A stretch of DNA of 26,169 nucleotides, from positions 1 through 26,169 of the IMG/VR virus record IMGVR_UViG_3300032265_000674; one strand, 5' to 3'. This document shows positions 1,159 through 26,169 of this stretch, piece after piece. The notes under the pieces were generated by a model, which worked only from the letters and a program-made list of their open reading frames with translations, was not told the DNA's origin and searched no databases. Origin of the DNA: a virus. Made by a program: the position numbers and the translations under genes. The number at the start of each line of letters is the position of its first letter. Within the stretch, counting starts at the first letter, position 1.

Positions 1159-1168
1159 TTAGTACTAT

Positions 1169-1197: not shown

Positions 1198-1226
1198 ATA
1201 TACATAGTAACAGTTAAGGAGCAGGA

Positions 1227-6776: not shown

Positions 6777-7611
6777 TTGATAATTCCTCTAGTTTTAATA
6801 ACATAGATTCCGTTAAGAAATCCTTGTCCACATAATGAAACACTCTGGGTTGTTTAATATTGCCTACTAACAACTGCCCTTTAGAAGTAATAATCGTAGA
6901 TACATTATCGGACCATTTTTCTGGTGCTGTTTCCCAGCCTTGTATAGGAGATTTCATATGTACAAACTCCATAGGATTATTAACATCAAATATGTGTTCG
7001 TGAGATCCGGTAATTTCTATTGCAATTGCTGTTGCTAAATCCATACTGGGCCAATCTTGATATTTTTCAGGTGCAAATATAGTCCAGCATTGTTCCCAGT
7101 TATTACACACAAATTCTAATACTTTATAAAAATCTTTTGCAAAATTAGATTTTTTAAAATAATGTAAAGCATAATAAGGACTAGATAATTTATTAGCTAT
7201 AAATGTCTGTCGGTGTACAGTATCTTCTAAAACATATTCTAATTTATAATTCAAAATTTTATTGCAAAATTTAACATCATAATTACTACAGTAATTCCAC
7301 CAACTAGTTAGATCCTCTAATACTAACATATCACTATCTAATACAATTGTTTCTTCGTATGGAGTTGCACTATATAGTTGGTATCTATGTTCTGTTTTAA
7401 GAAAACTATTTACTGTGTCATTAAAATAAGGAATTGGTATTATTTGATCAAATACAGATTTATAATTCTCTGGTATTGAATCATTAGTAACTATTGATAT
7501 ATTTTTAATTTCGATTTGGCTGTATTTTATACTTAATGCCAATGCGTATGCCTGTTGAACATAATCAACTGTGTCTGTATTTTGAGCGTAGACTAAAAAT
7601 CCTCTATACAC
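6766..7611 (-). CDS. Glycosyltransferase-like protein with DSD motif, GTG start (281 aa)
   Basis: Probable GT-A enzyme resembling family GT8-like proteins. FLVYAQNTDTVDYVQQAYAL near the N-terminus is followed by SATPYEETIVLDSDML, with the metal-binding DxD at DSD (92-94). The 7604-8470 product shows the same plan (FAQN, VDYV, SPYDKTLVIDSDY), so the two are paralogues. I start at GTG 7611, not the in-frame ATG at 7623. The GTG has a strong GGAGG (7621-7617) with a 5-base spacer, overlaps the upstream stop as GTGTATAG, and fits the paralogue's N-terminus. The ATG itself overlaps that ribosome site. Substrates are unknown. Confidence 0.72.
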   Translation of the reverse strand: MYRGFLVYAQNTDTVDYVQQAYALALSIKYSQIEIKNISIVTNDSIPENYKSVFDQIIPIPYFNDTVNSFLKTEHRYQLYSATPYEETIVLDSDMLVLEDLTSWWNYCSNYDVKFCNKILNYKLEYVLEDTVHRQTFIANKLSSPYYALHYFKKSNFAKDFYKVLEFVCNNWEQCWTIFAPEKYQDWPSMDLATAIAIEITGSHEHIFDVNNPMEFVHMKSPIQGWETAPEKWSDNVSTIITSKGQLLVGNIKQPRVFHYVDKDFLTESMLLKLEELSNGS

Positions 7612-8470
7612 CAGAACCTCCATTTATATAACGACTAAGACTGGCTTTATTCATAACATGGACATCAATGCCTGTAGTTTTTACTAGAGTATATTCTCCG
7701 AGATATTTTTCTTTTTCTACTAAAAATTTCATCTTGTCGCCGTCGGTTCCTATTAAAATATCTCTATCTAAAATATAAGACATTTTTCCCGGAAGCTCTA
7801 CTGCAAAAATTCCTTCTGTTTTTCCATTCATAATATGAATAGCAATACTAAATGCAAGATCATTGCGATATACTTGTGAATTAACAGAATATAATAATTT
7901 AAAATATTCCCAATTATCTTTTATATAACTTATTAAATTAAAAAAACTTTCTGTTACTGGATTTTTTTTAAAAACAAATACAGTTGCCCAATAAAATGGA
8001 ATACTATATTGATTAATACGTGTAAACTCGGCAGTATCCCTCCATCCTGCTAAATCTAAACTATTACGATAAATTTGAAAATCGTAATCTGACTCTAATG
8101 CAGAACTTAGAATATTAGAATTTAAAATATAATCACTATCAATAACCAGTGTCTTATCGTACGGCGATAATTTATACACATTTGTACGATCCTCATTTTT
8201 CCATTCTAAATTTTTATTAGAAATAGAGCCGTCATAAAACTTTTTAATCTGTTTAATTTTTTTAAATTCAACAACAGAATCAAATTCTATATCTATAATT
8301 TGGTCGAACGGATGATCCGGTGTACTAGTCTCTAACCAGCCTCTGCTATCGGTTATTATGCTAACCGGAATAGTTAAATATTGTTTAATTTTAGAGGCAG
8401 CAAAGACCGCCAGTTTTACATAATCGACGCCTGAATTATTTTGTGCAAAAATTACTGCGCCTGTTGTCAT
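7604..8470 (-). CDS. Glycosyltransferase-like protein with DSD motif (288 aa)
   Basis: A paralogue of the 6766-7611 product. GAVIFAQNNSGVDYVKLAVF opens the Rossmann-like part and SPYDKTLVIDSDYI carries the DxD at 111-113. A later segment (FYWATVFVFKKNPVTESFF) is also shared in style with the paralogue (HYFKKSNFAKDFY). The C-terminal part differs and ends SRYINGGSGV. The ATG overlaps the upstream TGA as ATGA, so translation is coupled to the 114-aa gene. It is probably a cytoplasmic sugar transferase. The acceptor could be virion glycoproteins, host surface glycans or modified DNA bases; the sequence does not decide. Confidence 0.7.
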   Translation of the reverse strand: MTTGAVIFAQNNSGVDYVKLAVFAASKIKQYLTIPVSIITDSRGWLETSTPDHPFDQIIDIEFDSVVEFKKIKQIKKFYDGSISNKNLEWKNEDRTNVYKLSPYDKTLVIDSDYILNSNILSSALESDYDFQIYRNSLDLAGWRDTAEFTRINQYSIPFYWATVFVFKKNPVTESFFNLISYIKDNWEYFKLLYSVNSQVYRNDLAFSIAIHIMNGKTEGIFAVELPGKMSYILDRDILIGTDGDKMKFLVEKEKYLGEYTLVKTTGIDVHVMNKASLSRYINGGSGV

Positions 8471-9861: not shown

Positions 9862-11358
9862 TTAAAGTATTACACATTCGACAAGTGTTTCGTCTGCACT
9901 AGTACAATCTTCTAATGCAACAGCAAAACAAATATTATTAGTAGAGTCGCCGTTTAAAAACCCAGGAATACTTGCGGCAGTTCCATCACCGTATGGAGCT
10001 ATCATGTCGCCTTTAGTACATCCGCCGACTACTCTTACTGGAATACGTCCTTTAAGTGCAACATATACTCCACCGGATAATTCTGAATTCATCATATAAC
10101 CAGGTTGTGTACTAATTGCGCCAATTGCTTTATCTCCAGTGCCGCTAGCACAAACTTCTGCAGAGCCGCCAACTTTCATTACTGTCCCCGGTGTGTATGT
10201 AAAATTTGGGTCTGGTAGATATTTTTCTGCCAAGTCAGCATAATAACTTTGTGTACTTGCTCCGTTGAATATACTAGCATTAATATTACCGCTGCCATCT
10301 CGTATAACAACTGTTAGTGGACTGGCTGCGGCACTTGGAGTTGCTGTAACACTATTATACAATAATGCAGAAGCTGTAGTGGCATTTCCGTTAAATGTTG
10401 TAGCCCATACACTAGACCATTGATAACTAGAATTACCCAAATTGCTTAATGTAGTAATTCCCGGTAGTACATCTGTGCCTACTAATTGTAACGGTGTAAC
10501 TAAATTCGAGCCGACAGTTGTTTGGAAAACAATAGTGTTGTTGCTTTGATTTTGAATAGTTGGAGTTGTTGCATTATTATTAAAAACACGTAAACGAGAA
10601 ACTGGATTTCCAACAGTATAGCCTACATCGGCAAAATTAACTATTGTACTAAATCCAGCACTTCCAGCAGTAATATAGCTACTTGCAGGTTGGCCGCCAA
10701 GTTGTTCTGCGTTAGTCGCAGTGCCATAAAATCTGTGGGAACTTTGTGTTACACCAGGAGCGGCACTATTGTTAGTATATGCTAATGTTACACCTTGTTG
10801 AACTGTTGTAAATCCTGTGATTGGATTTATTGTAGTATCTAATGTAAAAGCACTATCTGCACTAATGATAAAAATAACTTGTCCATTGTCAATAGCTTCA
10901 ATAACTGTATGACTTTGTCCGTTTGTATCTTTTACACTTGTACTTAACATCTCCGTATCGCCCGAACCTGCAACTGCTTGCGGTCCAACTAATACATATC
11001 TAGATCCTGTCCATGCAAACAACTGGTTAGTAGCAGTATCAAACCAAAAATCGCCCTGTGTTAACCCTGTTGGTGCAGTAGTACCGATTTCTGCGCCGCC
11101 GGTAGTCCGAAAACTATTGCCGTCCCAGAATTTTAATTTTTTAGTGCCGCTGTCAAACCAGATTTGGCCTTTAACAGGGCTAGCAGGAGCAGTACTATTA
11201 GCAAAATTTTCCAATAAGTAGACAAAATTCTCATTCTGAATTTGTCCGTATCCTGCATAATTTTTACCTACCAGAGTTAAATCTGTAGAGGTATCAACGG
11301 TTCCATCTGAGACTGTTACCAGCGAGGATCCATTATAGTGATTAATTGTATATGCCAT
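9862..11358 (-). CDS. Tail fibre protein, shared N-terminal module, YADLAEKY-type C-terminus (498 aa)
   Basis: The first about 125 residues form the module shared with the two fibre genes upstream: DGT, TDLTLVGKNYAGYG, NENFVYLLENFANSTAP and GQIWFDS, followed by a second GDFWFDT copy. This is likely the part that docks to the tail. The middle is a beta-rich shaft with NA/SSVWATTFNGNA-type repeats. The C-terminal about 128 residues begin SYYADLAEKY (371) and continue TPGTVMKVGG, a compact domain I recall at the ends of other phage fibres. Ribosome-site-like AAGGA/AGGAG precede the ATG. A GATAAATA box lies 24 bases upstream. Host-receptor binding is inferred. Confidence 0.8.
   Translation of the reverse strand: MAYTINHYNGSSLVTVSDGTVDTSTDLTLVGKNYAGYGQIQNENFVYLLENFANSTAPASPVKGQIWFDSGTKKLKFWDGNSFRTTGGAEIGTTAPTGLTQGDFWFDTATNQLFAWTGSRYVLVGPQAVAGSGDTEMLSTSVKDTNGQSHTVIEAIDNGQVIFIISADSAFTLDTTINPITGFTTVQQGVTLAYTNNSAAPGVTQSSHRFYGTATNAEQLGGQPASSYITAGSAGFSTIVNFADVGYTVGNPVSRLRVFNNNATTPTIQNQSNNTIVFQTTVGSNLVTPLQLVGTDVLPGITTLSNLGNSSYQWSSVWATTFNGNATTASALLYNSVTATPSAAASPLTVVIRDGSGNINASIFNGASTQSYYADLAEKYLPDPNFTYTPGTVMKVGGSAEVCASGTGDKAIGAISTQPGYMMNSELSGGVYVALKGRIPVRVVGGCTKGDMIAPYGDGTAASIPGFLNGDSTNNICFAVALEDCTSADETLVECVIL
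11183..11211. repeat. 29-bp exact repeat in the fibre N-terminal modules (copy 1)
   Basis: Bases 11183-11211 and 14527-14555 are identical over 29 positions. They lie in the codons for the ENFANSTAP part of two different fibre genes. The third fibre gene has a shorter match near 12305-12321. Identity at the DNA level, not just the protein level, makes recombination between fibre genes possible. Confidence 0.85.
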
Positions 11359-11382
11359 TGCTCCTGTTTCCTTATTCTTGAG

Positions 11383-11390
11383 TATTTATC
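11383..11390 (-). promoter_or_regulatory. T4-late-like promoter box GATAAATA
   Basis: On the minus strand GATAAATA lies 24 bases upstream of the 9862-11358 start, in a 48-base gap. It differs by one base from the T4 late consensus TATAAATA. A second identical box occurs in the other larger gap of this cluster (15347-15354). No -35 element is evident, as expected of late promoters. Confidence 0.6.
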
Positions 11391-11406
11391 ATTATTTTGG
11401 CTCTTA

Positions 11407-12471
11407 TTACCATGTAGCCAGGGCCGCTCTTTTCCAAGTATTTGTTGCTACACAAACGTAAACATAGCCAGAATCCCATGCAATTTGTCCTACTACGCCC
11501 GATGATGAACTGCTTGCAGGAGTTGCGGTACTTATTCTAAAAGTACCATTTACATCTAAAGTTGTTTGAGGATTATTGTTAAACATTCCTACAAATTTAC
11601 CGCTAGCATTTATATAAATTGCAGGCGATAATACCGAACCATTCCATGTGCTAATTTGAAAATTTTGGTTTGCTGTATTGGACTGGATTTGAAATAAGGA
11701 AGGGCTAACAGTTATTTCGTTACTACTATTTGCTCCTAATACTAACGGAGTAGAGTTTGTTATAGTTAATGTGCCATTAATCGAAGAACTGCCGTTAATT
11801 GGAACAAAACTATCAGGGGTATAAAGTGTAATATTGTCCGAGCCTAAAAGTTTGCTAGCTGTAATCACAGGAGCATTAAACGTAACTCCAGATAAACTAC
11901 CAACATTAAACCCTATATTAATATTTCCGGAAAACCCGCTAATGTTAGAAGCAGGAGTAAATGCACTAGAACTAAACAATCCTAAAAGATTACCCGATAC
12001 ATACAAATAAACTACAGTATGAGGCAAGTTATTTGAATCAAGAATTGTTTCAACTTGGAAGCCACTTACTCCTTGACTGCTAGAATATATCGGTCCTGCA
12101 AGTACATTAGAAATTCCATCATTAAAATATAGTTGAGCATTTGTACTATCGATCCAAAAATCTCCAGTTGAAATGCTACTAGGAATTGTTGGAGCAACTT
12201 GGGCTCCACCGATATTTTGAAAATTAGATCCGTTGTATACTTTTAGCGTATTTTGAGTAGTATCATACCAAACTTGTCCGGTTAAAGCATTAGGAGGTTG
12301 GGTTGTATTAGCAAAATTTTCTAGCAAATATACAAAATTATCATTCATATAAATGCCATAACCTGTGGAATTCTTCCCTATCAAGGTTAGATCGGTTGTT
12401 GTTTGATCTATAGTACCATCAACAATTTGAGTTAATTGCGTACCGTCTGTTAAATTTATCGTATAACTCAT
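11407..12471 (-). CDS. Tail fibre protein, shared N-terminal module, short form (354 aa)
   Basis: The N-terminus repeats the fibre module: DGTIDQTTTDLTLIGKNSTG, NDNFVYLLENFANTTQPP and GQVWYDT, then GDFWIDS. The shaft is shorter than in its neighbours. It contains NNPQTTLDVNGTF, a motif also seen in the 747-aa fibre as NPQSTLDVIGG. The C-terminus (GQIAWDSGYVYVCVATNTWK) is a small tip with no collar or YADLAEKY domain. Its ATG shares one base with the upstream gene's TAA (TAATG), so translation should be coupled. It is probably a fibre or receptor-binding variant. Confidence 0.8.
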   Translation of the reverse strand: MSYTINLTDGTQLTQIVDGTIDQTTTDLTLIGKNSTGYGIYMNDNFVYLLENFANTTQPPNALTGQVWYDTTQNTLKVYNGSNFQNIGGAQVAPTIPSSISTGDFWIDSTNAQLYFNDGISNVLAGPIYSSSQGVSGFQVETILDSNNLPHTVVYLYVSGNLLGLFSSSAFTPASNISGFSGNINIGFNVGSLSGVTFNAPVITASKLLGSDNITLYTPDSFVPINGSSSINGTLTITNSTPLVLGANSSNEITVSPSLFQIQSNTANQNFQISTWNGSVLSPAIYINASGKFVGMFNNNPQTTLDVNGTFRISTATPASSSSSGVVGQIAWDSGYVYVCVATNTWKRAALATW

Positions 12472-14714
12472 TATATGACACCAGTAAAAATTATGTAATT
12501 TATAGTTTGATAAGGATTCATTACAGTAACTGGCGTCGATTGTGCAGTTGTTGGCACACTAACACTACCGCTATCTTGTAATCCATACCCTTGTCCTGTT
12601 TGTGTTGTTGCTGCCAACCCATACCCTGGAGTGATGTCAGTAAGTTGGCCTTCAGTTTGAGCGTTAACTTGAGGGTTGGGTGCTCCAACAGCATAAAATT
12701 GTTGGAATCCATCGTTAAGACTATGTTTATGATCTGGCAAGTTAGTTGAAGATAATGTAACTGTTTGGTTGCCGCCGCCGGTCCCTACATTATCTGCGGT
12801 TACATCTGCCACACGATTAGCAGAGCCGCCGCCTGCAGAAATTAAAGTAGAAGCAGATAATTTTGAAGGAACTGTTAAGTTATTATTCATATTATCTGCA
12901 CCTAATGGAAATCTTCCTCTTAAGTCCGGCAAAGCAAATGTGTTCAAACCTACTAGTAAAGAAGCTGCCTTATAAGTGTACTCTAAAACTGCAAACAACG
13001 ATGGATATTTGCTAATTTGAACTTCGCTACCATCACATAATAAGTACCCATCTGGCAGGTTTGAAGCAATGCCTGCAAAAGGAAATATTGAACCGATAGG
13101 TACAGTTGCTACATGATTTAGTAATACTTGCTTTGTCATACTTACTAGTTGGTTAGAACTAGCTTGAAAAACAAATATTTGATCGTTTAAGGCAGAATCT
13201 GTTGCGGATGGTTTTTCTGTAATAATACTTGGGCTAATACTAGTAGTAAATATTGCAGATCCTGTTTGTGTTTGTCCGTTAAACACTACCGATGTGCTAG
13301 TTACATCGCCTGTTAAGGAAAACGTTGTAGCAGATTGTAATTTTGCCGCAGATCCAGATACACTACCAGTAACTGTTCCAGAAAATGTTCCAGAAAAATT
13401 TCCAACAAACGCATTGGCATAAATGTTTCTAAACGGTCTTGTCGATGATCCAATATCATACAACCCAGCGGCGGCGTCACTTGCTGGTTCTATTAATGTT
13501 TTAGCTACCGGATTGCCGTTACTATCATTATAATTAAGAAATAGTTGGCCATTAAATGTAACATCATCTCCTAAGATAGATTGTTTTGCAACACTTAACC
13601 CGCCAAGGGTTTGTATGCTTGCACCCCCTGGATCGTCCGCAGTTGTGCTAGTATCGTTAACATCTGCCGTTCCGCTAACAACAATTCTTCCTGGAATTGC
13701 ATTGGTTAAATCATTACTAACAGTTATACCGCCAATAACATCTAATGTCGATTGAGGATTTGCATTATTAGTACCAATTCCAAGTCTTGCATTTGCATTA
13801 AGATGCATACTTGTAATAACAGAACCGTTATTATTTGTAGAAAATTCTACAGAATTACCACTATTTTTAGAATATAGTACAGTTGTTGTACCATTAACAC
13901 CAATGTTAAATCCTAATCCAGAACCTACTGTAATTCCACCGTCATTTCTGACGTTAATTGGAAAATTAGAAATATTAGTTACATCGCTTCTTAAGAAGTT
14001 TGAAGCAGGTACTGTTGTTGCTGTAGTACCTGATCCCACTAATAGCGCATCTGCTTGTTGTGCAGTCCCCCAAATTCTCGATAAGCTCGATGTATTTGTT
14101 GAATCAACCGAACTTAAATTAATACCCTGATTAATTGCAGTAAAACCTAGTATGGCAGATTTTGGAGTAAATGCATCTTTACTAATAATTACCATTCGGT
14201 AACTAGTTGTAGTAGTGCTTGCGCTAGTTGCGTATACAGTTGTTACAATATGGGTTACATTGTTTGTATCAATTATAGTTTCGACGATAGGACCAGATTG
14301 TAAACCAGAACTAAATTGCGGACCAACTAATACAAATGACGATCCTGAATACAAATATAGCTGACTATTAATAGTATCAACCCACAAGTCGCCAGATACA
14401 GGATTAGTTGGAGCAGTCCCAGATTTTTTAACGCTTCCTACAGGATTCCATGTAGTTCCATCGTAAGCATATAATAAATTAATTCCTGTAGAATTGTCAA
14501 ACCATAATTGTCCTTGCACAGGATTTGCAGGAGCAGTACTATTAGCAAAATTTTCTAATAAGTGTAAAAAATCTCCTGCAATAATAGGAGCGTAACCAGA
14601 ATAGTTTTTTCCTACATACTGCAAACTGGTAGTGTTATTTACAGTACCGTCTTGAACCGTAATAGGTTGTTTATCTGGATTATTAGATTCTGTAAAAGAT
14701 ATAGTATAAGACAT
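12471..14714 (-). CDS. Tail fibre with phage tail collar domain (747 aa)
   Basis: The longest of the three related fibres. The shared module occupies about residues 1-130 (VGKNYSGYAP, LLENFANSTAP, GQLWFDN, GDLWVDT). A long Thr/Ser/Asn-rich shaft follows. From about residue 538 a phage tail collar domain (PF07484 type) is visible: IGSIFPFAG, PDGYLLCDGS, YPSLFAVL and LPDLRGRFPLG. The end has NLPDHKHSL, giving HxH (H662, H664), and closes with MNPYQTINYIIFTG. T4 short tail fibre gp12 has a collar domain and coordinates zinc through an HxH, so a gp12-like receptor-binding role is plausible. GGAG with an 8-base spacer supports the start. Confidence 0.85.
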   Translation of the reverse strand: MSYTISFTESNNPDKQPITVQDGTVNNTTSLQYVGKNYSGYAPIIAGDFLHLLENFANSTAPANPVQGQLWFDNSTGINLLYAYDGTTWNPVGSVKKSGTAPTNPVSGDLWVDTINSQLYLYSGSSFVLVGPQFSSGLQSGPIVETIIDTNNVTHIVTTVYATSASTTTTSYRMVIISKDAFTPKSAILGFTAINQGINLSSVDSTNTSSLSRIWGTAQQADALLVGSGTTATTVPASNFLRSDVTNISNFPINVRNDGGITVGSGLGFNIGVNGTTTVLYSKNSGNSVEFSTNNNGSVITSMHLNANARLGIGTNNANPQSTLDVIGGITVSNDLTNAIPGRIVVSGTADVNDTSTTADDPGGASIQTLGGLSVAKQSILGDDVTFNGQLFLNYNDSNGNPVAKTLIEPASDAAAGLYDIGSSTRPFRNIYANAFVGNFSGTFSGTVTGSVSGSAAKLQSATTFSLTGDVTSTSVVFNGQTQTGSAIFTTSISPSIITEKPSATDSALNDQIFVFQASSNQLVSMTKQVLLNHVATVPIGSIFPFAGIASNLPDGYLLCDGSEVQISKYPSLFAVLEYTYKAASLLVGLNTFALPDLRGRFPLGADNMNNNLTVPSKLSASTLISAGGGSANRVADVTADNVGTGGGNQTVTLSSTNLPDHKHSLNDGFQQFYAVGAPNPQVNAQTEGQLTDITPGYGLAATTQTGQGYGLQDSGSVSVPTTAQSTPVTVMNPYQTINYIIFTGVI
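14527..14555. repeat. 29-bp exact repeat in the fibre N-terminal modules (copy 2)
   Basis: The partner of the repeat at 11183-11211, in direct orientation and about 3.3 kb apart. Recombination between the two would delete or fuse the intervening fibre sequence, joining one N-terminal module to a different tip. Confidence 0.85.
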
Positions 14715-14717
14715 TTA

Positions 14718-15326
14718 TTATACTCCTACCAAACCAGTCAAACTTTGTATGCGTACGGTATAATCAATCTGAATCAAACGATTTAAACTTTTTAACACCG
14801 GATGGAATATAACATGTGTTAACAAAGTAGTAGAACCATCTAAATTATAGCTTTGTAATCCTAATTCATCAAATACATACGCACTATTACCATTAGCTTC
14901 GATGTCGTATGCACTTTGTCCGCTTGGCTCGCCGTAATCTAACAAACAAGTAACAAAAACATCTGTGTAGTTTGTACCAGTAGTATGACGAGTTTCGATA
15001 AAATTTCGAGTAGGATCTAGATTGTTAGCAGATGCTTGGTTAACTACTTTAGCAAAAGTTTCATTATAAAGACTAGCATTTGTACCTGAAGTATTTGGAG
15101 TAAGGTACGTAATAATTCCGGTAGGATCGATGCTAGTTCCACCGTTACCAAATGCCATTTGATATACAAATCCACTTCCACTATCTGCTAGACTTTTTGC
15201 AATAGCAACACTCATGTTTTCATAATGAATGGCGTTGCGTTTATTAATATAAACTTCCTTAGAAACAGGGTCATATATTTTAATATGCCCTTCTATGTGG
15301 ATTCCTGTTTGATCTTTGGTCTGCAT
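14718..15326 (-). CDS. Probable virion structural protein (202 aa)
   Basis: A beta-rich protein starting KDQTGIHIEGHIKIYDPVSK and containing KRNAIHYENMSVAIAKSLA and YQMAFGNGGTSIDPTGI. The pattern resembles small baseplate or tail proteins that I recall from marine T4-like phages, but a specific T4 equivalent cannot be named. It lies between the sedolisin gene and the collar-domain fibre, three bases from the latter, supporting a tail role. The leader has a GATAAATA box 20 bases from the ATG and a purine-rich AAAGAGAG ribosome site. No catalytic motif is seen. Confidence 0.65.
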   Translation of the reverse strand: MQTKDQTGIHIEGHIKIYDPVSKEVYINKRNAIHYENMSVAIAKSLADSGSGFVYQMAFGNGGTSIDPTGIITYLTPNTSGTNASLYNETFAKVVNQASANNLDPTRNFIETRHTTGTNYTDVFVTCLLDYGEPSGQSAYDIEANGNSAYVFDELGLQSYNLDGSTTLLTHVIFHPVLKSLNRLIQIDYTVRIQSLTGLVGV

Positions 15327-15379: not shown

Positions 15380-17020
15380 CTACCTTGCACCTGTTGTTTT
15401 TCTTGGATATGTTACACCGGATGTAGGTCTAAATCCGTAATTTTGTTTAGGAAATGTGTGTCCAGTATGAAAATATTTGTATATTTGGTCGGCTTTTGGG
15501 CTACCTAAACCAGTAACAGCGTCCCATCCAGAAGTACAAGCGTAACCAGTAGTATATCCGGCCCTGTTATTCCCAGTAGACACGTCATTGAATAACGCAG
15601 AACTATTTGAATAAAATGTAGACATATTAAACGGAATTCTTTTGCCTAATAATTGATTTAATCTTACCCACATACCTGCTAGTAAAGGAGCAGACGCACT
15701 GGTGCCGCCTACCCCGTTAATCAATGTTCCTTGCGCACCACTAGTTCCATTATAATAAAATGTATATCCCGTAGCAGGATCTGCAGGAGCACTCCAATCC
15801 GGAACACCTCTGCGAGTCAAAGCTGTTGGAGATCCTAATCCTGTAGCATTGCCACCTGTTGTAGTAGTATATGTTAAACCAGTTTGCCAACTAGGAACTG
15901 CAATAGTTGCACTCATGCCGCCGCCGGAACCGCTAGTGCCTGTACCTGTAGAATTTCCCCAACCTACTTCGGCAACAAGTTGATTAGATCCGTTAAGAGT
16001 TACGTTAGTACCTCCAGCAGATACCATATATTGACTACAAACCGTAGAAGACATACTCAAATTAACTGCCCCTGAATCGCCAGAACTTACAAAAACTGTT
16101 ATTCCTTTTACGATTGCGGCTTGCAAAGCAGTGTCATATTGGGTGCCGTCTCCTAATCCCCAACTTATACTTAATACGCTAGGATTATTTGTTGTATCGT
16201 TAACTGCGGCATTTATATTATCATTAATATTAGCTGTTCCGCCATTAGGAGCAATATAATAAGCTATCTTTGCTTTAGGTGCAACAGCACCAGCGCAGTA
16301 AATATCTAACATTGTTTCTACGGTACTGTTAGAATGAAAATAAGCACTATCAGTATTTACAGTTACGACTGTAGGAGCGGTAAGTCCTATACGACTAAAA
16401 CTAGCAGTCACGTCGGGTTGTTGCCAACCTTCTCTATAATCATATACACTAACCAAATTTAAACTTAATTCAAAAATCCCAATGCAGCCGCCGTAACCGT
16501 TGCCTGCTGGTACATTATATGCTGTTGCCATTTGAACCGGTGTTACTACGCTAGATCCGTAAGAAGATCCTAATTCAGGATCTGCAACATTATCTGCAAT
16601 AATAATATGTCTTTTTGCAAAAAAACTTTGATCAAATCCGCCCACATCTCGAACTGCCGATGCAATTTCTGTAGGTATGACCACTGGGTTATCATGGGTT
16701 ATATAAGTTCTATCATCTTCTGTTACTTCTTTAAGGATAACTTTAAATAGATCGCCAAGTTGTCCTATTGTGCCTTTAACTTTTATAGTTGCTATTGCAG
16801 ATTCTGCCAACACAATTTCAAGATTATTTTTAGTTGCCCAGTTAGACACTAGTGCCATATCGGTATCTGTTGCACCAAACTGGTAGTCTAGTCCGCCGTG
16901 ATCCAATATTGGATGAGTCCCAGCTAGTACCGCATCGGCATATTCTTTTAATGTCATCCCATTATCATGGGTGTCGTTATTAAGGTATATGCTAATTTGA
17001 AATGGTTGTGTATAATCCAT
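15380..17020 (-). CDS. Sedolisin (S53) serine-carboxyl peptidase with pro-domain, in the tail-fibre cluster
   Basis: A 546-aa endopeptidase of the sedolisin/kumamolisin family. The N-terminal about 150 residues look like the Pro-kumamolisin activation domain (LKEYADAVLAG, LAESAIATIKVKGTI, DNPVVIP). The catalytic domain follows (TPVQMATAYNVP, GGCIGIFELS). The active-site set is complete: E235 and D239 in ETMLD, the oxyanion Asp D315 in SSGDSG, and nucleophile S441 in GGTSASAP. Family landmarks SISWG, RRGVPDWSA-DP-TGY and the C-terminal calcium-site region (FNDVSTGN, SGWDAVTGLGSP, D479 and D500) are also present. No signal peptide is visible, as expected for a virion protein. GGAAG with a 6-base spacer sets the ATG, one base after the upstream fibre's stop. 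Likely roles are digesting a host surface protein layer or processing tail proteins; both are inferred from position. Confidence 0.92.
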   Translation of the reverse strand: MDYTQPFQISIYLNNDTHDNGMTLKEYADAVLAGTHPILDHGGLDYQFGATDTDMALVSNWATKNNLEIVLAESAIATIKVKGTIGQLGDLFKVILKEVTEDDRTYITHDNPVVIPTEIASAVRDVGGFDQSFFAKRHIIIADNVADPELGSSYGSSVVTPVQMATAYNVPAGNGYGGCIGIFELSLNLVSVYDYREGWQQPDVTASFSRIGLTAPTVVTVNTDSAYFHSNSTVETMLDIYCAGAVAPKAKIAYYIAPNGGTANINDNINAAVNDTTNNPSVLSISWGLGDGTQYDTALQAAIVKGITVFVSSGDSGAVNLSMSSTVCSQYMVSAGGTNVTLNGSNQLVAEVGWGNSTGTGTSGSGGGMSATIAVPSWQTGLTYTTTTGGNATGLGSPTALTRRGVPDWSAPADPATGYTFYYNGTSGAQGTLINGVGGTSASAPLLAGMWVRLNQLLGKRIPFNMSTFYSNSSALFNDVSTGNNRAGYTTGYACTSGWDAVTGLGSPKADQIYKYFHTGHTFPKQNYGFRPTSGVTYPRKTTGAR

Positions 17021-17021
17021 A

Positions 17022-18494
17022 TTAAACTTCCAATTTTAGATATGTTATTGTCACTGTAATGGCTGCAGAAGAACCGCTATTGTTATAAACCTTCAAGTAC
17101 ATGTTTGTACTTGGAGTACCGTCTGCATTATATCCAAATACTGCTGGAGTAAAATATGTTGTGGTAGCGGTTGTTGTTATTGCTTCTGCTACCACACCGC
17201 TACCTGGTGTCGGGTCTGTTGTAATGCTTCTGCTACTGTCATTAGATTGTGCAGTTGAGCTAGTATACACTGTTACCCACGCTCCAGCACTAACTTGGAT
17301 ACTATATAATACATAACCTTTTGCGGCTGTTACTGTAGCTGTTGCACTAGTGCCGTTAGATAAACTAGCCGTAGTAGTTGCAACTGCGGTTCTGCCTGGC
17401 AAGCTGGCTGGGCTAGCTGAAATTACACCATTGGTAATTGTAATCGTTGAGCCATCAACTTTGACACCGCCAAGTGTTCCTGTTGAAATTGTACCAACGG
17501 TTGCAGTTGGCAAAGTGTAATTGGTAACGTTACTAATTACTCCGCTACCGTTAACTGTAATTGTTGTACCATCAACTTTGACACCGCCTAATACGGTAGT
17601 ACTTGCAACTGGAGTTATAGAGCTAATAATTCCGTTGCTAATTGTTATAGTTGAACCATCTATTTTAACTCCACCTAATGTATTAGCACTTGCTGTTGGC
17701 AATAGGTATTGGATTTGGCCGCTACCGTTAATCGTAATACTTGAATTATCTATTTTAACACCACCTAATGTACCGGAACTTGCTGTTGGTAAAGAATATC
17801 CAGTATATCCGCTAATAACTCCATTATTGATAGTAATAGTTGTACCGTCTACTTTAACACCACCGAGGATACTTGTAGTTGCTGTTGGCAATAAGTATTG
17901 GATTTGTCCGCTACCGTTAATCGTAATACTTGAATTATCTATTTTAACACCACCAAGTGTACTAGAACTTGCTGTTGGCAAGATATAAGAATTGCCGCCT
18001 TGATTGATTGCGGTAATAACTCCGTTATTAATAGTAATAGTTGTGCCGTCAATCTTAACGCCGCCCAAGGTGCTTGTAGTTGCTGTTGGTAATGAATATC
18101 CGCCAGTACTGGTAATGACCCCGTTATTGATTGTAATTGTTGATCCATCGACTTTAACGCCGCCCAAGGTGCTTGTAGTTGCTGTTGGCAACGTGTAAGT
18201 TCTTGCACTAATAACGCCAGATGATGTAGTAATTGTAACTCCGTCAACTTTAACACCGCCTAATGTGCTTGTGCTTGCTACAGGTATAGTGTAGTTAAGT
18301 ACAGCAGAAGCTGGTTGCCATAGTAGTACTGATCCGTTGGTGGATAATATAAATCCACTATTTCCACCTTGTGGAGGAACAACTGACGAGTATAACTCGG
18401 TAAAATTTGCATTTATCTTTTGGCCGCCAGTACGGAGATTGTCCCCGGTACCGTCATCTAATGCCGTTCCTAAATTTAATAACTGCTGTGCCAT
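17022..18494 (-). CDS. Tail fibre protein with nine LGGVK repeats (490 aa)
   Basis: The N-terminus GTALDDGTGDNLRTGGQKIN and ANFTELYSS is a known phage fibre/structural motif (GTGDxLRTxxxKINxNFxELY). The central region holds nine copies of a roughly 26-36-residue unit, LPTAxxxTLGGVKVDGxTI followed by TIxNGVI, which should form a repetitive beta shaft. The C-terminal about 130 residues (from LPGRTAVATT) form a separate beta-rich tip. I place the start at ATG 18494, with GAGG 11 bases upstream and seven bases after the giant gene's stop. An in-frame TTG at 18515 would overlap that gene and has no better ribosome site. It is probably part of a side fibre. The next gene is the sedolisin. Confidence 0.8.
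   Translation of the reverse strand: MAQQLLNLGTALDDGTGDNLRTGGQKINANFTELYSSVVPPQGGNSGFILSTNGSVLLWQPASAVLNYTIPVASTSTLGGVKVDGVTITTSSGVISARTYTLPTATTSTLGGVKVDGSTITINNGVITSTGGYSLPTATTSTLGGVKIDGTTITINNGVITAINQGGNSYILPTASSSTLGGVKIDNSSITINGSGQIQYLLPTATTSILGGVKVDGTTITINNGVISGYTGYSLPTASSGTLGGVKIDNSSITINGSGQIQYLLPTASANTLGGVKIDGSTITISNGIISSITPVASTTVLGGVKVDGTTITVNGSGVISNVTNYTLPTATVGTISTGTLGGVKVDGSTITITNGVISASPASLPGRTAVATTTASLSNGTSATATVTAAKGYVLYSIQVSAGAWVTVYTSSTAQSNDSSRSITTDPTPGSGVVAEAITTTATTTYFTPAVFGYNADGTPSTNMYLKVYNNSGSSAAITVTITYLKLEV
17430..18290. repeat. In-frame repeat array of the LGGVK fibre
   Basis: Nine divergent direct repeats with unit lengths mostly near 80-110 bases. Some copies are recent. 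Bases 17692-17789 and 17881-17978 differ at about six of 98 positions and are offset by 189 bases (63 codons, a two-unit step). Bases 18055-18089 and 18154-18188 are identical over 35 positions, offset by 99. Offsets are multiples of three, so unequal recombination keeps the frame. Confidence 0.9.
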
Positions 18495-18501
18495 ATCTTG
18501 A

Positions 18502-21500
18502 TTATCCTCTATCAAATGTTATGTTGCCACTATCAAACGTGCCATTGCCGTTGTCAAATGTTACTGCCGATGTATTCGATACTTGGTTAGTACCTAATTT
18601 ATTATATTCGTTGTATGAAATTCCGGGTTCCGCACGTAAAAATTCTCCAACTACTCCTGGATCGTATAATATATCAATTTGAGATTGATTATTTTTATTT
18701 CCGTCCCAAGCAACACCTGTATTTTTAATAACTGTAATTTGTGTTCCAGGTGTTAACAAGTTTGTTAGAATTAAAGACGCCGCATTTACTATAAACAATA
18801 AATTTGCAGACCCATTTAACGCAGAACCAGTTGTATGCGTTGGAGCAATTGTACTAGTTGACTTAGAATAGGTTAATGTATTATTTACAATTGTAGATTT
18901 AGCTGGATTGCTTATAGTAATACTATGAGTACTTATTGCAGAAATAATAGTGCCGGTAACTATGCCTGTTCCAAATACTAAGTCGCCAACACCGAGTCCT
19001 GCAACACTACTAATATTTGTAATTGTTGTATTGTTGCCAGTTAAATTTCCACTAAAGGTGCCGCCATTTGTAACTTGATAATAGTTATTATTATATAAAA
19101 TATACTGGTTAAGTTGAACAACTGTATTAGATGTCCATGTTTTAGCAGAACTATATTTTACACTAGGAATAGTAAAATCAGGATCAAATTTAACATCTCC
19201 CGCAGGACTATACGGAGCATTGTTTATGTTGAATACGGTATATCCAACTTTCTTCAATCTTGTATTTCCTATGAAGAATTTCCAATTAGTAATGTCATTA
19301 AAGAATGTATCGGTACTTGTGTGAGCTACAGTACATCTGTATGTATAAGGTCCTTGGTTTACAATAGTTCCTACAGAGTAAGAAACTCCGCTAGCCCATT
19401 CTGCACCATCATTATACCCTCCAACAAATACTTCTACATCATTAACCGACGATGGTATGAACGGTAAACTAATAACACTTGTTCCATCGCTAATAAATTG
19501 GTTTGTCAATTGTGTATCAACATATGGAATTGTAGAACTTGTTCCAATATCTTGTACAAACGATCCGGCAATATAGAACGTGCGCATGCCAGTACCTAAT
19601 GTGGATCTTCTTAGTTGGCTCAAAGTATTTCCAGATACTTGATAATATTCAATGCGTTCTCCTACTATTTCAATTACGCCGGGTTTGGATCTAGCCGGGT
19701 TCGGTAAGTCAAGTTTACTAGCATCTGTAACTACTATCTGTGTGTCACTCCATAATAAATCGTGAGCCAATGTAGTTTGTTTATTAGAACTCAATCGCTT
19801 GTATGAAACTCGATTTAACATATCCTTGAATTGCATATATGCAACTCCTGGTAATAGTGTAGTACTACCAAATGTAATTATAGATAATACTGTAGTAGAA
19901 TCGATAATTAAAGAATTGGATAATGTTAAACTTAAATGATCGGCATTTAATTTATAATCAACACTAGGTGTTAATAATGTTCCGCTAAGAGTTGCCCATA
20001 CATAGTTTTGATCAATAACATATCGATCCAACGGAACAATTTTACCAGTTATATTTTGATATTCAAAATACGAAGGAGTGTTGACTACTAAATTTGCATT
20101 ATTGCTAACATTAATTTCGGTTCTCTCAATGTCTAAAATATCATGTTGATAGAAACTAACAACTTGTACTAAGTGTGTATTATCGTATGCTGTAGTAAAT
20201 GTTATTTGTTGTGTACTAGGATTATATGTATATGTTTCTCCTAAAGTTACGCTAACAATTAATGTTTGGCCTTTGTACTTAGAATAAACTTGTTTATTAA
20301 TTTTAATAGTAATTCCGCTAAGATCTACTGTATAATCAGTACCTAAGGATAATGTAACGTTGCCAACAATTACAAAAATACTGGTGATAGGTACGGTGTA
20401 AGGGGTAAATTTAGTAGAATCTATAGAATAATTTAATCTATTATTACCAATCGTAAAATAACTATTGTTAGGAGCTTGTAGTATAGTTTGGTCAACTCTA
20501 ACTAACATATTAGATTCGCTTGGTAATGAATTTCCTATTTGATTTTTCAATGTGTAAGATAGAGAACCATTAGTTGCAATAGTTTCTACACTAGCAATTG
20601 AAAATTCCTGTTGGGTTCCACTAACAATAATGTAGTTGATTACCTGCCCAGATGTTGGCGGAACTGCAAATCGTAATCCAATGACATCCACTACAGAGTA
20701 AGTAGAGTCTGTTCTAAATAATACAGGAGTTGCAACAACACCGTTTACATAAACTAAACTAGTAGCCGGAGATTGCCACTTGATATTAGTGACAAATTCT
20801 GTTGTTGAACCGTCGCCAATAAAATAATCAATACCAAGAATATTATTACCATTATATCCAATAGTAAACAAACTTAACTGTTGATTTGCACCAGGTACCG
20901 CATTTAAAACAACTGTTTGTTTATTTGATTGTGTATTGTAATTTACAACATAATCAACATTTAAAGTTTTAATATTTCCGTTAAGTTTTACAATAACAGC
21001 ACCTGGACTATTTGGCACTTGACTTAACGCATAAGTTGAGGTAGTTCCGTCGGTGATATAGTTGTCAACATGAATTTTTGCAGATCCAGAATTTGGAATA
21101 TTAAACACCTTAATAGCCACAGTATCAACAACTTGTCCTGGAACAACTTCTTCAGGTGCGCCGCTAGTATCTGGAGTAACAAAATCATCTCCGTCAACAA
21201 TTATGTCATCTGCTAACAAACCAGTAGCAGTTGAATAAACGCCATTTAAGCTAGTAGTATCGCCGCCAGTTAATGCTGTATCATAATCCGACTCTGGAGG
21301 AACAATTGATCCATCACTAGTAGTTTGTCTTATAATAAATTCATCACCGTCGATTACAGTATATGTATTTGGAATGTAGAATGTATTATTGATACCATCT
21401 GCTAAGAATGTATTAACTACTGCTGTAGAATTATAAACAGGAATTAATGTAGACTTTGCCGCAAGTATAGTGTTGGCTGTCGACTGTAATGTAGATACAC

Positions 21501-24500
21501 CTAACGTAACTGTAGGAGTTACTGTTGTAACTGTTACATTTGTCAAATATTTTACTATAGATGCAATATTATTAGAAACGGTAGTACTTGTAATTCCACC
21601 ATGAACCAAATTACTATTAGTGTATTGGAAAAATGCAGTTTGTAAAGGAGTAACTACAGTATTCAAAATAATACTTTGCACCAAGCTGTTCAAATAAGAG
21701 TATACGTCTGTCCAGTAAGCAGTCCAGTTAGATGGATTAGAAGTAAATCCTATTGCAGGAGCTAACGTGGCTGTGTATAACGTCTGACTATTTCCACCGT
21801 ATAGTACATCATATACCAACGACTCAACTGTATATTGTATCTGTGTTTGGAACAGATTTGTATTATAAGTTACACTTGGATAATTTGCTGTAATATATGC
21901 AATCATCTCTGCTTGAATAAATGGAATATTATCATTTAGTAAGATAGCGGCATTAGTAATTCCTCCGTTAGGAGTTTGGAAGGTATATATTCCATTTTCA
22001 ATAAATTCTGCAACTCTTAAATCAACTTTTGCCGCAATCAATCCGTTAGACGGTATCACTTCAACAGTTATTACTGTTGCTACTCCTGTTATTCCTGGGC
22101 CAGTAACAGTCCACCCTGTTGTAACAGGAGTACTGCTAACAGATGTTACAGGAATATAAACATGATAAAAGTCCACTGTCTGAATATTTGGTACATTGTA
22201 AGAAATTACTGTAGGAGTTCCGTAAGGAGACGGATATACAAAAGTAGGAACTATTCCGCCATTAACAATCGATGTAATAATACCAGCATAAGTGTTTATT
22301 GTAGAAACTGCTGTACTATTAGATTTTATCGACGATAAATTAGTAATAGTTTTAATAACATTATTAATTGAAAGAATTGCTTCTGAGGGTTTGTAACTGT
22401 TGCTAGTTACTGCCAACAATATTGCATTACCTACTTGTATACTTTGTAAATTACTTCCAAATACAGTGTCATATGCTATTGCATTAATCAATTGCGTAAT
22501 GTAAGAAGAAATATTATAATTAAGATCATCTAATCTTAATGGATTCAATACACCAGTAACATGTACCGTTGTATTTGAAATAATATTGCTATTTTTAAAA
22601 TTAATTAATTTAAGTGTGCCAGCAATAGGTATAATATAATCTATAGATAATGTTAATGTTCTAGTAAATGTTACACTAGTTCCATTCGGAATTATCTTAT
22701 ATAGCATGTGGTTTAGAGTAACTGTAGTACTGTTTAAAACACTAACTACTGTTGTTCCGCTAACAAACGCACCATTTCCGCCAGTTATAATATCTCCTGC
22801 TTTTATTCCTGACGAATTGGTAACTGTGAGAGTAGAACTGCTTATAACATTTTTTGTAAATGTCATTGTTCCAACTGGAGCGGCATCTGGACTATTACTC
22901 AAAGTTAACACCGTGCCATTAACAACTGTTGAAACAATTTGTCCTTGAGTGAAACCAGTTCCAATAATTGCCATTCCAGCCGTAATTCCTGCTGTATTAA
23001 TTACTGTTAATGTTGTACCGTATTGGCCGCCTGGAAGCGTATTAATTGAAACAAAATTTGTTGAAACGCCAGCTGTTGCTGTAGTCCAAGATGCGGTTAC
23101 TACTGGAGGTAAATCCGTAACATTAAATTGATAGCTACTTGTAGAGCCGTTGGATACGTAACTATTTGTATAACTTTGTGTTTTATAAATGTTTAATTGT
23201 GTTCCAACGCTTGGAGTGTATGGTAATGTAAATGCATGTGTGTTTGCGTTAACTACTATGGCATAATCTGTATAAGTTGAATCTGAAGCATCCCAACCAG
23301 TTGAATAATAAGGAACACTGTCCCAACCAGAAGATTCTACAAAATTCATACCATTAACTATTACTCCACCATAGTCTATGCCAGTTAATAGTTGTGACAA
23401 ATCTTGGCCGGGCATACCTGCGGTTGGGGAATAATAATATTGTATTCTATCGGTAGCACCTAATAAAGATTGATCAACAATATATGTAACAGATATTTTT
23501 GCACCGACTGCTGGAGCTGTAGTAAATGTTATATTTCCAGAATATTGTGTGTATCCTTTTGTTGTTGAACTAACAATGCTCAGTACATAACTATCTCTAA
23601 GTGCAAGTATTCCATTAACGGTAACAGTGCTTTTTCCAACACGAACATCAGGTCCCCATGTGAGTGGGAATTGTACTCGATTAGCTGTTCCGGTAAATGT
23701 TTCTATTTTTTGTAATTGTGTAATATAGTAACTGCTGTCAACTCTATCAAACTTCATTCCAAGTAGAGTAGATCTTACTACACTATTACCTATAATTGAT
23801 GTGGCTGTTGCCGCAACTCCGTGAGGTCCAAGGCCGCCTTCAATAGTTACAGTAGGTTTAGATAAGTATCCGCTTCCGTGTGTTAGTAACACAATTCTAT
23901 TAACAGAACCGTTAGTGATAAATGCTCTAGCAGTTGCTCCAGATCCTGAACTACTAGTTATTTTTACCACAGGATTAGATACATAACCAGATCCGTTGCT
24001 GGTCAATATTAATTCTGTAACTGTAAACCCTACATTGTCTAACCAAAATTTCCATGGATAATTTTGTATATTTGAATCTGGTGTAACAATTTGATCGTTT
24101 TCATAGTAAGCATTTAACACTGTCATCTTACTATTTTCGTAAATAGGTTGTAAATCAAAATCGGTTATTGGCAGTTGACCTACATCTAAATTTTTATAAT
24201 TATCAACATACTCTCTTACCTTAGTTCTATAAGGTTTAACTTCATTTACATAATCCTGGAAATTACTTAAATTATCGGGCTGATAAGTTACAGGTTGGGT
24301 TAACGAACCAACATTGTGCTCTGCTTTAACAAAGCTAGTTTTAAAGATCCAATCGACGTATGGTTGTTCGCTATGTATGTAACGAATACTGTCAAAGAAT
24401 ATATCTAAGTAAGATGTTATAAGTGTGTTTATAAAAATATTATTTTGCAATGTTTTAAGAATAATTCTTAATTCTACTGCGGCATATTGATCAAATCCTT

Positions 24501-26169
24501 CTGCATCGTATGTACTATTATCAAAACCTAATATTGTTCCAGACGTATTGTACAAACTAGGACTTAATTGTATAGTACCGTTTTGAATACCAACTGTATG
24601 ATATGACTGTGTCCAATCGACACTAGTAGAAGTAGCGTACTTGTATAATAAAATCCAGCCGCCGGCGCCTACAGTACGTACTTTAACTATTTCTCCAATA
24701 GCAACAGATATACTGCTTAAATCTGCTAATGTTGAAACAGAAAAATCTGGAGCTGTAAATTGTGTTGCTGTAACAGTATTTCCAGTAGTAGGATCTACAT
24801 ACGATCCATACCAGTCGGCATAATTCCAGAATTTTCTTACATCATATGATTGTGTAACTGTTCTGCTCCATACTTTGTAAACTGGATCGTAAGAATATAT
24901 ACTCCAATTACCACCAGCCTGACTATCGCTAGTTACCAACGCACTATAATTTCGAACAGAGAATGTTGTGGCATTGTCGTATCCTACTCCTGGAGATATA
25001 ACTTTAACTCCAGTAATCTGTCCTTTAGTATTAATAATACTTTGTACTACTGCACCAGTACCCGACCCGTTAACTTCAATATAAGGAGCTTGCAAATAAC
25101 CCTTACCCGAAGAAACGATTGTTGCGCCGATAATTCTACCATTTCCTATTACAGGAGTTAAGGAAGGAACAGCATAATTTGCAACAGTTGCATAAGGTAA
25201 ATCTGCATCAATTGCAAATGTAACATCATACATACCTAAAATTGCATTTGGAACAGGGTCGTAACTTTCTAATGCAGATAAATCACAACTTTCAACTATT
25301 TGATTTGCAAGGAGTGTTTTGTTAGCTATATCAGCAAATTCTTTTAATGCCTCAAAACGATTTACAAACATTCCTTGTCGTGGTCGGTTTTCAATACCAT
25401 AACGTAGTTTAATTGGCAATGCTGGATCTGGAACTATCCTACCTTGAGCATCTACTCCACACAAACTATCGATCCATTTTTGTAAAATGCTAGGTGGAAT
25501 TTTTGTATTTGGATCGTCGCTAATTAATTTCCAGTGTCTGTGAACATTCTGATCGGTATTTTCAATCAACCAATAATGTACACTAAGCACCACTTTAGTA
25601 TCTTGTAAGAATTGTTTTGCATTAACTAAACTAAAACTATTTGTTCCAGTTAGTGCAAGATATGTGTATCCTTGCCCGCGAGGGTTGGCTATAAGATTAG
25701 ATACATTTAATGCGTCTAAATGTCTGCCAGAGTTATCTGGAATATATCTCTTATTCTTAACCCAGAAATAATAAGTTTTAGTAAATTGTCCTGTAACACT
25801 ATTAAATGTTTGGCTGAAACTATATGCATTATTACCATATAAACTAGTTCCACTAATGCCACTTGCTAAACCTAATGGAGTATCTGCAATCTTATCCCAT
25901 GCACTAGGCATTTGATTATAAGAAACCCATTCGTAAATATCAATACTAGCGCCAGCTGCCAATGAATTCCAACTAGAATTACGATATACAGGATCGTTTA
26001 CATAAACATTTAAAAATTTAGCAGTTCTTAGATCCCACCATAATTGGCCTAACGGTGCTGTGGTCCAAGATGCATTTGCATTAACATTGACTTCAACTGT
26101 AGAGTTAGAATCAACGTAAGTATAAACAGCAGGGTCGTAAAATGCCTTGTAAGTTATTTCTTCTTCGGC
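18502..26169 (-). CDS. Giant virion structural protein, N-terminus outside the window (at least 2,555 aa)
   Basis: An uninterrupted frame from the window edge to TAA 18504-18502. The first methionine-like codon at 25962 is a TTG (Leu), and the frame stays open upstream (for example WWDLRTAKFLNVYVNDP near 25990-26040), so the gene is partial. Visible pieces in order are WWDLR; GxGY-P-V repeats (near 24965-25130 and 23800-24030); KPYRTKVREYV (near 24210-24240); three copies of a motif like TLTVTNSSGIKAGDIITG (near 22960-23025, 22730-22850 and 18960-19040); many VNG--DY beta repeats between about 23640 and 19900; an IEYYQVSG/LRRSTLGTG block (near 19590-19670); and an FDNGNGT tail. The protein is Thr/Ser/Asn/Val-rich with no enzyme motif. 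It resembles large structural proteins of marine T4-like phages and is likely a fibre, baseplate or whisker component. Confidence 0.8.
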   Translation of the reverse strand, partial: AEEEITYKAFYDPAVYTYVDSNSTVEVNVNANASWTTAPLGQLWWDLRTAKFLNVYVNDPVYRNSSWNSLAAGASIDIYEWVSYNQMPSAWDKIADTPLGLASGISGTSLYGNNAYSFSQTFNSVTGQFTKTYYFWVKNKRYIPDNSGRHLDALNVSNLIANPRGQGYTYLALTGTNSFSLVNAKQFLQDTKVVLSVHYWLIENTDQNVHRHWKLISDDPNTKIPPSILQKWIDSLCGVDAQGRIVPDPALPIKLRYGIENRPRQGMFVNRFEALKEFADIANKTLLANQIVESCDLSALESYDPVPNAILGMYDVTFAIDADLPYATVANYAVPSLTPVIGNGRIIGATIVSSGKGYLQAPYIEVNGSGTGAVVQSIINTKGQITGVKVISPGVGYDNATTFSVRNYSALVTSDSQAGGNWSIYSYDPVYKVWSRTVTQSYDVRKFWNYADWYGSYVDPTTGNTVTATQFTAPDFSVSTLADLSSISVAIGEIVKVRTVGAGGWILLYKYATSTSVDWTQSYHTVGIQNGTIQLSPSLYNTSGTILGFDNSTYDAEGFDQYAAVELRIILKTLQNNIFINTLITSYLDIFFDSIRYIHSEQPYVDWIFKTSFVKAEHNVGSLTQPVTYQPDNLSNFQDYVNEVKPYRTKVREYVDNYKNLDVGQLPITDFDLQPIYENSKMTVLNAYYENDQIVTPDSNIQNYPWKFWLDNVGFTVTELILTSNGSGYVSNPVVKITSSSGSGATARAFITNGSVNRIVLLTHGSGYLSKPTVTIEGGLGPHGVAATATSIIGNSVVRSTLLGMKFDRVDSSYYITQLQKIETFTGTANRVQFPLTWGPDVRVGKSTVTVNGILALRDSYVLSIVSSTTKGYTQYSGNITFTTAPAVGAKISVTYIVDQSLLGATDRIQYYYSPTAGMPGQDLSQLLTGIDYGGVIVNGMNFVESSGWDSVPYYSTGWDASDSTYTDYAIVVNANTHAFTLPYTPSVGTQLNIYKTQSYTNSYVSNGSTSSYQFNVTDLPPVVTASWTTATAGVSTNFVSINTLPGGQYGTTLTVINTAGITAGMAIIGTGFTQGQIVSTVVNGTVLTLSNSPDAAPVGTMTFTKNVISSSTLTVTNSSGIKAGDIITGGNGAFVSGTTVVSVLNSTTVTLNHMLYKIIPNGTSVTFTRTLTLSIDYIIPIAGTLKLINFKNSNIISNTTVHVTGVLNPLRLDDLNYNISSYITQLINAIAYDTVFGSNLQSIQVGNAILLAVTSNSYKPSEAILSINNVIKTITNLSSIKSNSTAVSTINTYAGIITSIVNGGIVPTFVYPSPYGTPTVISYNVPNIQTVDFYHVYIPVTSVSSTPVTTGWTVTGPGITGVATVITVEVIPSNGLIAAKVDLRVAEFIENGIYTFQTPNGGITNAAILLNDNIPFIQAEMIAYITANYPSVTYNTNLFQTQIQYTVESLVYDVLYGGNSQTLYTATLAPAIGFTSNPSNWTAYWTDVYSYLNSLVQSIILNTVVTPLQTAFFQYTNSNLVHGGITSTTVSNNIASIVKYLTNVTVTTVTPTVTLGVSTLQSTANTILAAKSTLIPVYNSTAVVNTFLADGINNTFYIPNTYTVIDGDEFIIRQTTSDGSIVPPESDYDTALTGGDTTSLNGVYSTATGLLADDIIVDGDDFVTPDTSGAPEEVVPGQVVDTVAIKVFNIPNSGSAKIHVDNYITDGTTSTYALSQVPNSPGAVIVKLNGNIKTLNVDYVVNYNTQSNKQTVVLNAVPGANQQLSLFTIGYNGNNILGIDYFIGDGSTTEFVTNIKWQSPATSLVYVNGVVATPVLFRTDSTYSVVDVIGLRFAVPPTSGQVINYIIVSGTQQEFSIASVETIATNGSLSYTLKNQIGNSLPSESNMLVRVDQTILQAPNNSYFTIGNNRLNYSIDSTKFTPYTVPITSIFVIVGNVTLSLGTDYTVDLSGITIKINKQVYSKYKGQTLIVSVTLGETYTYNPSTQQITFTTAYDNTHLVQVVSFYQHDILDIERTEINVSNNANLVVNTPSYFEYQNITGKIVPLDRYVIDQNYVWATLSGTLLTPSVDYKLNADHLSLTLSNSLIIDSTTVLSIITFGSTTLLPGVAYMQFKDMLNRVSYKRLSSNKQTTLAHDLLWSDTQIVVTDASKLDLPNPARSKPGVIEIVGERIEYYQVSGNTLSQLRRSTLGTGMRTFYIAGSFVQDIGTSSTIPYVDTQLTNQFISDGTSVISLPFIPSSVNDVEVFVGGYNDGAEWASGVSYSVGTIVNQGPYTYRCTVAHTSTDTFFNDITNWKFFIGNTRLKKVGYTVFNINNAPYSPAGDVKFDPDFTIPSVKYSSAKTWTSNTVVQLNQYILYNNNYYQVTNGGTFSGNLTGNNTTITNISSVAGLGVGDLVFGTGIVTGTIISAISTHSITISNPAKSTIVNNTLTYSKSTSTIAPTHTTGSALNGSANLLFIVNAASLILTNLLTPGTQITVIKNTGVAWDGNKNNQSQIDILYDPGVVGEFLRAEPGISYNEYNKLGTNQVSNTSAVTFDNGNGTFDSGNITFDRG
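18505..18558 (-). repeat. 21-bp tandem repeat at the 3' end of the giant gene
   Basis: Read on the minus strand, units at 18558-18538, 18537-18517 and a partial 18516-18505 each begin TTTGA and encode FDNGNGT, FDSGNIT and FDRG before the TAA. The last partial unit contains AGAGGA, which appears to serve as the ribosome site of the following fibre gene. Confidence 0.85.

Follow-up and report, generated by a model that had tools for sequence, protein, structure and literature searches.

Sedolisins are a family of secreted peptidases with an acid optimum, and the occurrence of a sedolisin gene among the tail-fibre genes of a phage raises the question of what such an enzyme does there. The gene is found in the window, i.e. 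the whole stretch of DNA that was analysed, a linear IMG/VR virus record of 26,169 bases (Table 1). The first-pass annotation had described a complete S53 protease that keeps the pro-domain, the catalytic set and the calcium-site region, starts one base from a repeat fibre and lacks a signal peptide; each of these points was borne out, the N-terminus being judged by eye and the gene lying on the minus strand. Two of the checks that it had proposed, an S53 profile search and a predicted structure compared with kumamolisin, gave concordant results. Indeed, the Pfam profile Pro-kuma_activ (PF09286) scored 34.8 bits (cut-off 23.5) and Peptidase_S8 scored 31.8 bits at residues 242-460; the best sequence match in the PDB by phmmer was pro-kumamolisin (1t1e, E 3e-53), which was also the top Foldseek match (E 5e-36) of the AlphaFold2 model (mean pLDDT 74.5).

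Table 1. Features of the sedolisin locus in the window.
Feature	Coordinates	Strand	Basis
Sedolisin (S53) protease gene, 546 aa	15380..17020	minus	Pfam, phmmer, alignment, Foldseek
Pro-domain, Pro-kuma_activ, residues 5-130	16631..17008	minus	Pfam
Sedolisin catalytic domain, residues 159-508	15497..16546	minus	phmmer, alignment, Foldseek
Catalytic residue codons	E235 16316-16318; D239 16304-16306; D315 16076-16078; S441 15698-15700	minus	
C-terminal tag, residues 519-546, TGHTFPKQNYGFRPTSGVTYPRKTTGAR, two half-repeats of (RP)xS/TGxxY/FP	15383..15466	minus	
One-base gap (17021) and GGAAG (17031-17027) within the fibre gene end	17021..17031	minus	
Repeat fibre gene, 497 aa; N-terminus weakly like T4 gp9/gp10	17022..18515	minus	
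Fibre C-domain, residues 371-497, predicted beta-sandwich, proposed dock	17025..17405	minus	
Giant virion structural protein, open at window end, phrog_10938	18502..26169	minus	homologues in same position
202-aa virion protein flanking the cassette; orthologue CBB_230	14718..15326	minus	
Fibre with phage tail collar domain	12471..14714	minus	Pfam

In the alignment with kumamolisin, E235, D239, D315 and S441, the residues named at the outset, correspond to the catalytic Glu and Asp, the oxyanion Asp and the Ser, and all four are unchanged across 21 divergent phage homologues; D479 and G498/D500 are retained in the calcium region. The window ORF shows sequence and structural hallmarks of family S53, namely the subtilisin-like fold, the Ser-Glu-Asp triad with the oxyanion Asp and the activation domain, and it is a complete kumamolisin-type sedolisin with an intact catalytic set. 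Pairwise dN/dS values of 0.05-0.19 indicate strong purifying selection. The fold, the pro-domain, the Glu/Asp/Asp/Ser set and the calcium region are common to kumamolisin and the bacterial sedolisins (MEROPS S53; 1t1e), whereas a C-terminal tag and a location in a tail cluster belong to the phage protein alone. An S53 fold in a virus is also found in Barrevirus, Homavirus and others; however, these are metagenomic giant viruses of eukaryotes, to which tail cassettes do not apply.

The gene belongs to a run of virion genes on the minus strand, which comprises the giant structural protein, the repeat fibre, the sedolisin, the 202-aa protein, the collar-domain fibre and more fibre-like proteins. 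A GGAAG motif precedes the sedolisin ATG, and its position within the end of the fibre gene, together with the one-base gap, suggests that the two genes are translationally coupled; promoter and terminator scans around the sedolisin gene performed no better than shuffles. The model of the fibre C-domain gave no confident match in the PDB (best E 2e-3), and for this reason no function was read from its fold. Three adjacent fibre-like proteins of the same run (9862-14714, minus strand) have a common N-terminus, VGKNYSGY...NFVYLLENFANSTAP, and probably represent paralogues that attach to sites of the same kind.

IMG/VR was searched using the protease, its tag and the fibre C-domain as queries, some loci being fetched twice, and 48 further contigs with a sedolisin were identified. 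A C-domain fibre lies directly upstream in all 48, as in the window, and the gap between the two genes is nearly always 1 nt, the exceptions being 35 nt (L025-L028 group) and 0 (L165). Some phage sedolisins, e.g. those of L028, L029 and L031, are short and devoid of the pro-domain, and these form one clade in the protease tree (100/100). Neither form matched any of 50,697 phage records, which represent cultured phages, and the literature that was searched yielded no relevant account of a phage sedolisin. In a tree with 57 cellular sedolisins, sampled by pattern and not exhaustively, the phage sequences occupy one side of a branch with support of 100/98; a scan with a tag-rich alignment found no cellular relative, its conserved stretches lying in the phage-only tag, and was repeated using a tag-trimmed alignment. 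In four contigs (L013, L017, L018 and L033) the fibre-sedolisin pair is placed in another neighbourhood, without homologues of the giant and 202-aa proteins, and therefore moves as a unit.

About 27 conserved residues (520-546), missed by the first-pass annotation, extend beyond the protease domain. Mean pairwise identity is 0.75 in this tag region, versus 0.56 in the catalytic domain and 0.46 in the pro-domain, and pLDDT is below 50 across residues 521-546, the tag being predicted as disordered. Its core is R-P-x-S/T-G-x-x-Y/F-P-R, often with a second half-copy ahead of it (clear in L113 and L118); the window sedolisin carries RPTSGVTYPR six residues from its C-terminal end. The cellular sedolisins inspected stop right after GLGSPxG, before the tag. 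Among 4,545 distinct ORFs, 65 end in the tag, and each of them is either a protease of the slot behind the fibre or a small protein encoded in a cyanophage fibre cluster; as the module guided the collection of these loci, the absence of the tag elsewhere is a measure of specificity and not of frequency in nature. The tag peptide alone, too short for tblastn, had no match in cultured phages, and the link to them came through neighbouring proteases of the subtilisin family S8.

Matches to the fibre C-domain occur in 45 phage records, which come almost entirely from cyanophages. An S8 protease is coded behind this domain, usually after 1 nt, in S-CREM1, S-RSM4, S-H38, Sf-FR1 and S-H9-1, and also in ACG-2014h, ACG-2014i, S-CAM4, S-CAM1 and S-WAM2. 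These subtilisin-like proteases (S-CREM1 UYA57622, S-RSM4 CAR63236, S-H38 QPB07966; T4-GC 292 cluster) thus share with the window sedolisin the slot, the fibre C-domain, mostly the 1-nt gap and a tag at or near the C-terminus; they differ in belonging to S8 and in coming from phages of marine cyanobacteria, while the window protease belongs to S53. The earlier view that enzymes of this sort are no regular part of tails has to be adjusted, as the subtilisin type occupies this slot in many cultured cyanophages and is often annotated; the novelty lies in the sedolisin family taking that slot.

The same alternation was found in a survey of the 80 IMG/VR C-domains nearest to that of the window, the best 80 of at least 593, a sample that leans towards close relatives: the adjoining genes of more than 350 aa fall into 38 clusters at 90% identity, 24 of S8, 12 of S53 and two unassigned by phmmer. 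One of the latter (L167/L168) has the N-terminus and tag of L141, which Pfam assigns to S8; the other resembles copper-binding proteins, and the same contig has a second C-domain fibre followed by a protein of the L141-type S8 family. In both families the slot protease has the tag at or close to its C-terminus; in several cyanophage S8 enzymes it is internal, with an added C-terminal domain after it, and in two (L154 and L158) it was not seen. Six phage S8 proteases that do not adjoin a C-domain fibre (from P-SSM2, S-SCSM1_228, Sf-CH8, S-T4 and AG-345-E02, and the second S8 of the L028 genome) have no tag. In the ACG-2014h protease (L079:4383-7307) the tag is followed by parts that by eye resemble an alpha/beta-hydrolase and a cupredoxin, and similar cupredoxin-like ends occur in the slot proteases of S-H9-1, S-CAM4 and ACG-2014i. 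The untagged second S8 protease of L028 lies at L242:1399-2943, on a 345-kb contig in which the slot is filled by a short sedolisin.

The explanation that we regard as probable is that the sedolisin is a virion-borne protease, docked on the tail fibre by its tag, which cuts proteins of the host surface. It would supply the catalytic part of a tail cassette of two genes. The first gene encodes a fibre ending in a beta-sandwich C-domain, and translation continues one base further on with the protease; the flexible tag, with its two RPxSGxxYP half-repeats, would dock the enzyme on the fibre, most likely on the C-domain. Made without a signal peptide, the protease would join the virion during intracellular assembly and leave the cell at lysis, and at adsorption it would cut host-surface or matrix proteins so that the tail can pass. 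Until self-cleavage the enzyme is presumably held silent by its pro-domain, and some phages use a version that has none. The enzyme is exchangeable, the position being taken by S53 with or without pro-domain, by an S8 subtilase or by nothing, while the fibre C-domain stays. The dock could also be another protein, since in some cyanophages the tag is found on small proteins of 77-142 aa near the C-domain fibre, two or three genes away. At L078:960-3496, L080:4386-6916, L088:5391-7603 and L089:5365-8516, other cyanophage C-domain fibres are followed by a non-protease family, starting with MAV..VNGGNTGW or similar, and then by a small tag-ending protein; cargo of the virion other than proteases may also be served by the tag.

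Exchange of the enzyme is directly visible in the genomes. On a backbone formed by the giant protein, the fibre, a variable gene and the 202-aa protein, the variable position holds S53, S8 (L106, L109, L110 and L120) or nothing: in L170 the slot is empty, with 57 nt between the fibre and the 202-aa gene, and a protease was not found on this 17-kb fragment of the phage genome. L029 is 74-86% identical to the window in two neighbouring genes, the 202-aa protein being at 86%, and only 39% in the protease, a short sedolisin without pro-domain, although its flanks are closer than those of most relatives. On the fibre C-domain tree at least three switches between S53 and S8 are required, all forced by well supported branches, and the short sedolisins are scattered over it with seven changes, at least five of which are forced in the same way. 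In the cultured jumbo phage Phosso the 202-aa orthologue comes directly after the giant protein, with no cassette between these flanking genes. Being swapped, empty in L170 and absent between the Phosso flanks, the cassette is an accessory part.

These results bear on the second proposal of the first-pass annotation, a maturation protease. During assembly such an enzyme would cleave the fibre, the giant protein or some other protein of the tail. The gene does lie within a block of virion genes, adjoining a giant structural protein, and phages use assembly proteases such as T4 gp21. However, an enzyme of this kind should always accompany its virion substrate genes, and this is contradicted by L170, by Phosso and by the exchange of families with different specificity behind related fibre domains; moreover, what has been conserved over long times as a partner is the tag with the fibre domain, and no cleavage site is visible in that role. 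These results weaken the maturation reading, which we consider unlikely.

Slightly less likely still is a free late protease, which would be made at lysis and act in the lysate or on the host envelope, in release or receptor destruction, without being part of the virion. The secreted habit of the family would fit this role, but the sedolisin has no visible signal peptide, its gene is coupled to that of a fibre and its tag is shared with a protein detected in virions. Indeed, mass spectrometry of purified P-SS2 particles identified ORF 087 by 11 peptides and ORF 090 by 4 peptides (PMC2784084); ORF 087 is a C-domain fibre, and ORF 090 (L087:7356-7784; 143 aa in the published table, PMC2784084) ends in the tag VRPTSGFIYPRRI. 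ORF 090 is a siphovirus protein coded three genes behind the C-domain fibre, so the module reaches beyond T4-like phages. The virion proteome of S-SCSM1 has been published (PMC9602691), and its record labels as virion proteins the C-domain fibre, the product of the next gene and a fibre ending in RPQSGQMYPR; in our reading these labels derive from mass spectrometry. CBB_230, the orthologue of the 202-aa protein, was detected by mass spectrometry in CBB virions (PMC5259590). The initial proposal of a virion-borne protease clearing a host layer is thus supported indirectly, by the coupling to a C-domain fibre, the tag, the presence of a homologous fibre and a tag-bearing protein in virions and the swapping.

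Two further explanations are very improbable. According to the first, the protease is a virion cargo injected with the DNA, which degrades defence or regulatory proteins in the host cytoplasm; cyanophages do carry virion enzymes, yet such proteins are usually in the head or the tail tube and not on fibres, and cytoplasmic conditions would leave an acid-type enzyme with little activity. That the fold is only a binding or decoration domain, as happens when enzyme folds are reused and as the lack of activity data on this phage clade in the literature searches would allow, is at odds with catalytic residues invariant in 21 divergent homologues and with the GTSxxxP motif of the catalytic serine, retained in most of the complete S8 slot proteins inspected.

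As to the phage that carries the protease, sedolisin contigs of 153-345 kb encode a T4-type gp23 nearest to those of Phosso, PA5oct and Erwinia SNUABM phages, and the 202-aa flanking protein likewise points to jumbo phages. Rak2-like and other jumbo myoviruses (Phosso, Atu_ph07, CBB and PA5oct) are the closest cultured relatives of both proteins; unlike the window phage, Phosso does not have the fibre-protease cassette between the flanking genes. The psbA gene was not found in 12 large sedolisin contigs. A cyanobacterial host is disfavoured by this absence and by the relationship of gp23 to proteobacterial jumbo phages; since the 202-aa protein is also nearest to these phages, the host is probably proteobacterial, as far as gene content and relatedness can tell.

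The tail enzymes known from phages are mainly polysaccharide or peptidoglycan degraders. There is an even chance that the large aquatic phages related to T4 have in common a general plug-in way of arming their tail fibres: the C-domain would be the dock, the tag the plug, and interchangeable proteases, i.e. S53 with or without pro-domain and S8 alone or fused to further domains, would be loaded according to the surface proteins of each host. Such a system would be the proteinaceous counterpart of the swappable polysaccharide depolymerases of other phages, and it would imply that surface proteins of the host (S-layers, pili, matrix or outer-membrane proteins) form a major obstacle to phages of aquatic habitats. 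The fibre-linked reading would also account for the subtilisin-like genes of cyanophages, annotated and so far uninterpreted, and the tag and its dock would offer a simple handle for testing it and for finding further virion enzymes.

Outside the fibre region, the window encodes a MoxR-like AAA ATPase adjoining a DUF2201 putative metallopeptidase/VWA protein (64-2411, plus strand), a pair with no assigned phage role, and a ThyX-type thymidylate synthase (3938-4600, plus strand). These are followed by a block of genes without Pfam match (4597-8470, minus strand), in which, by eye, two pairs resemble glycosyltransferases; the same fibre region is followed in Phosso (L253) by radical SAM genes.
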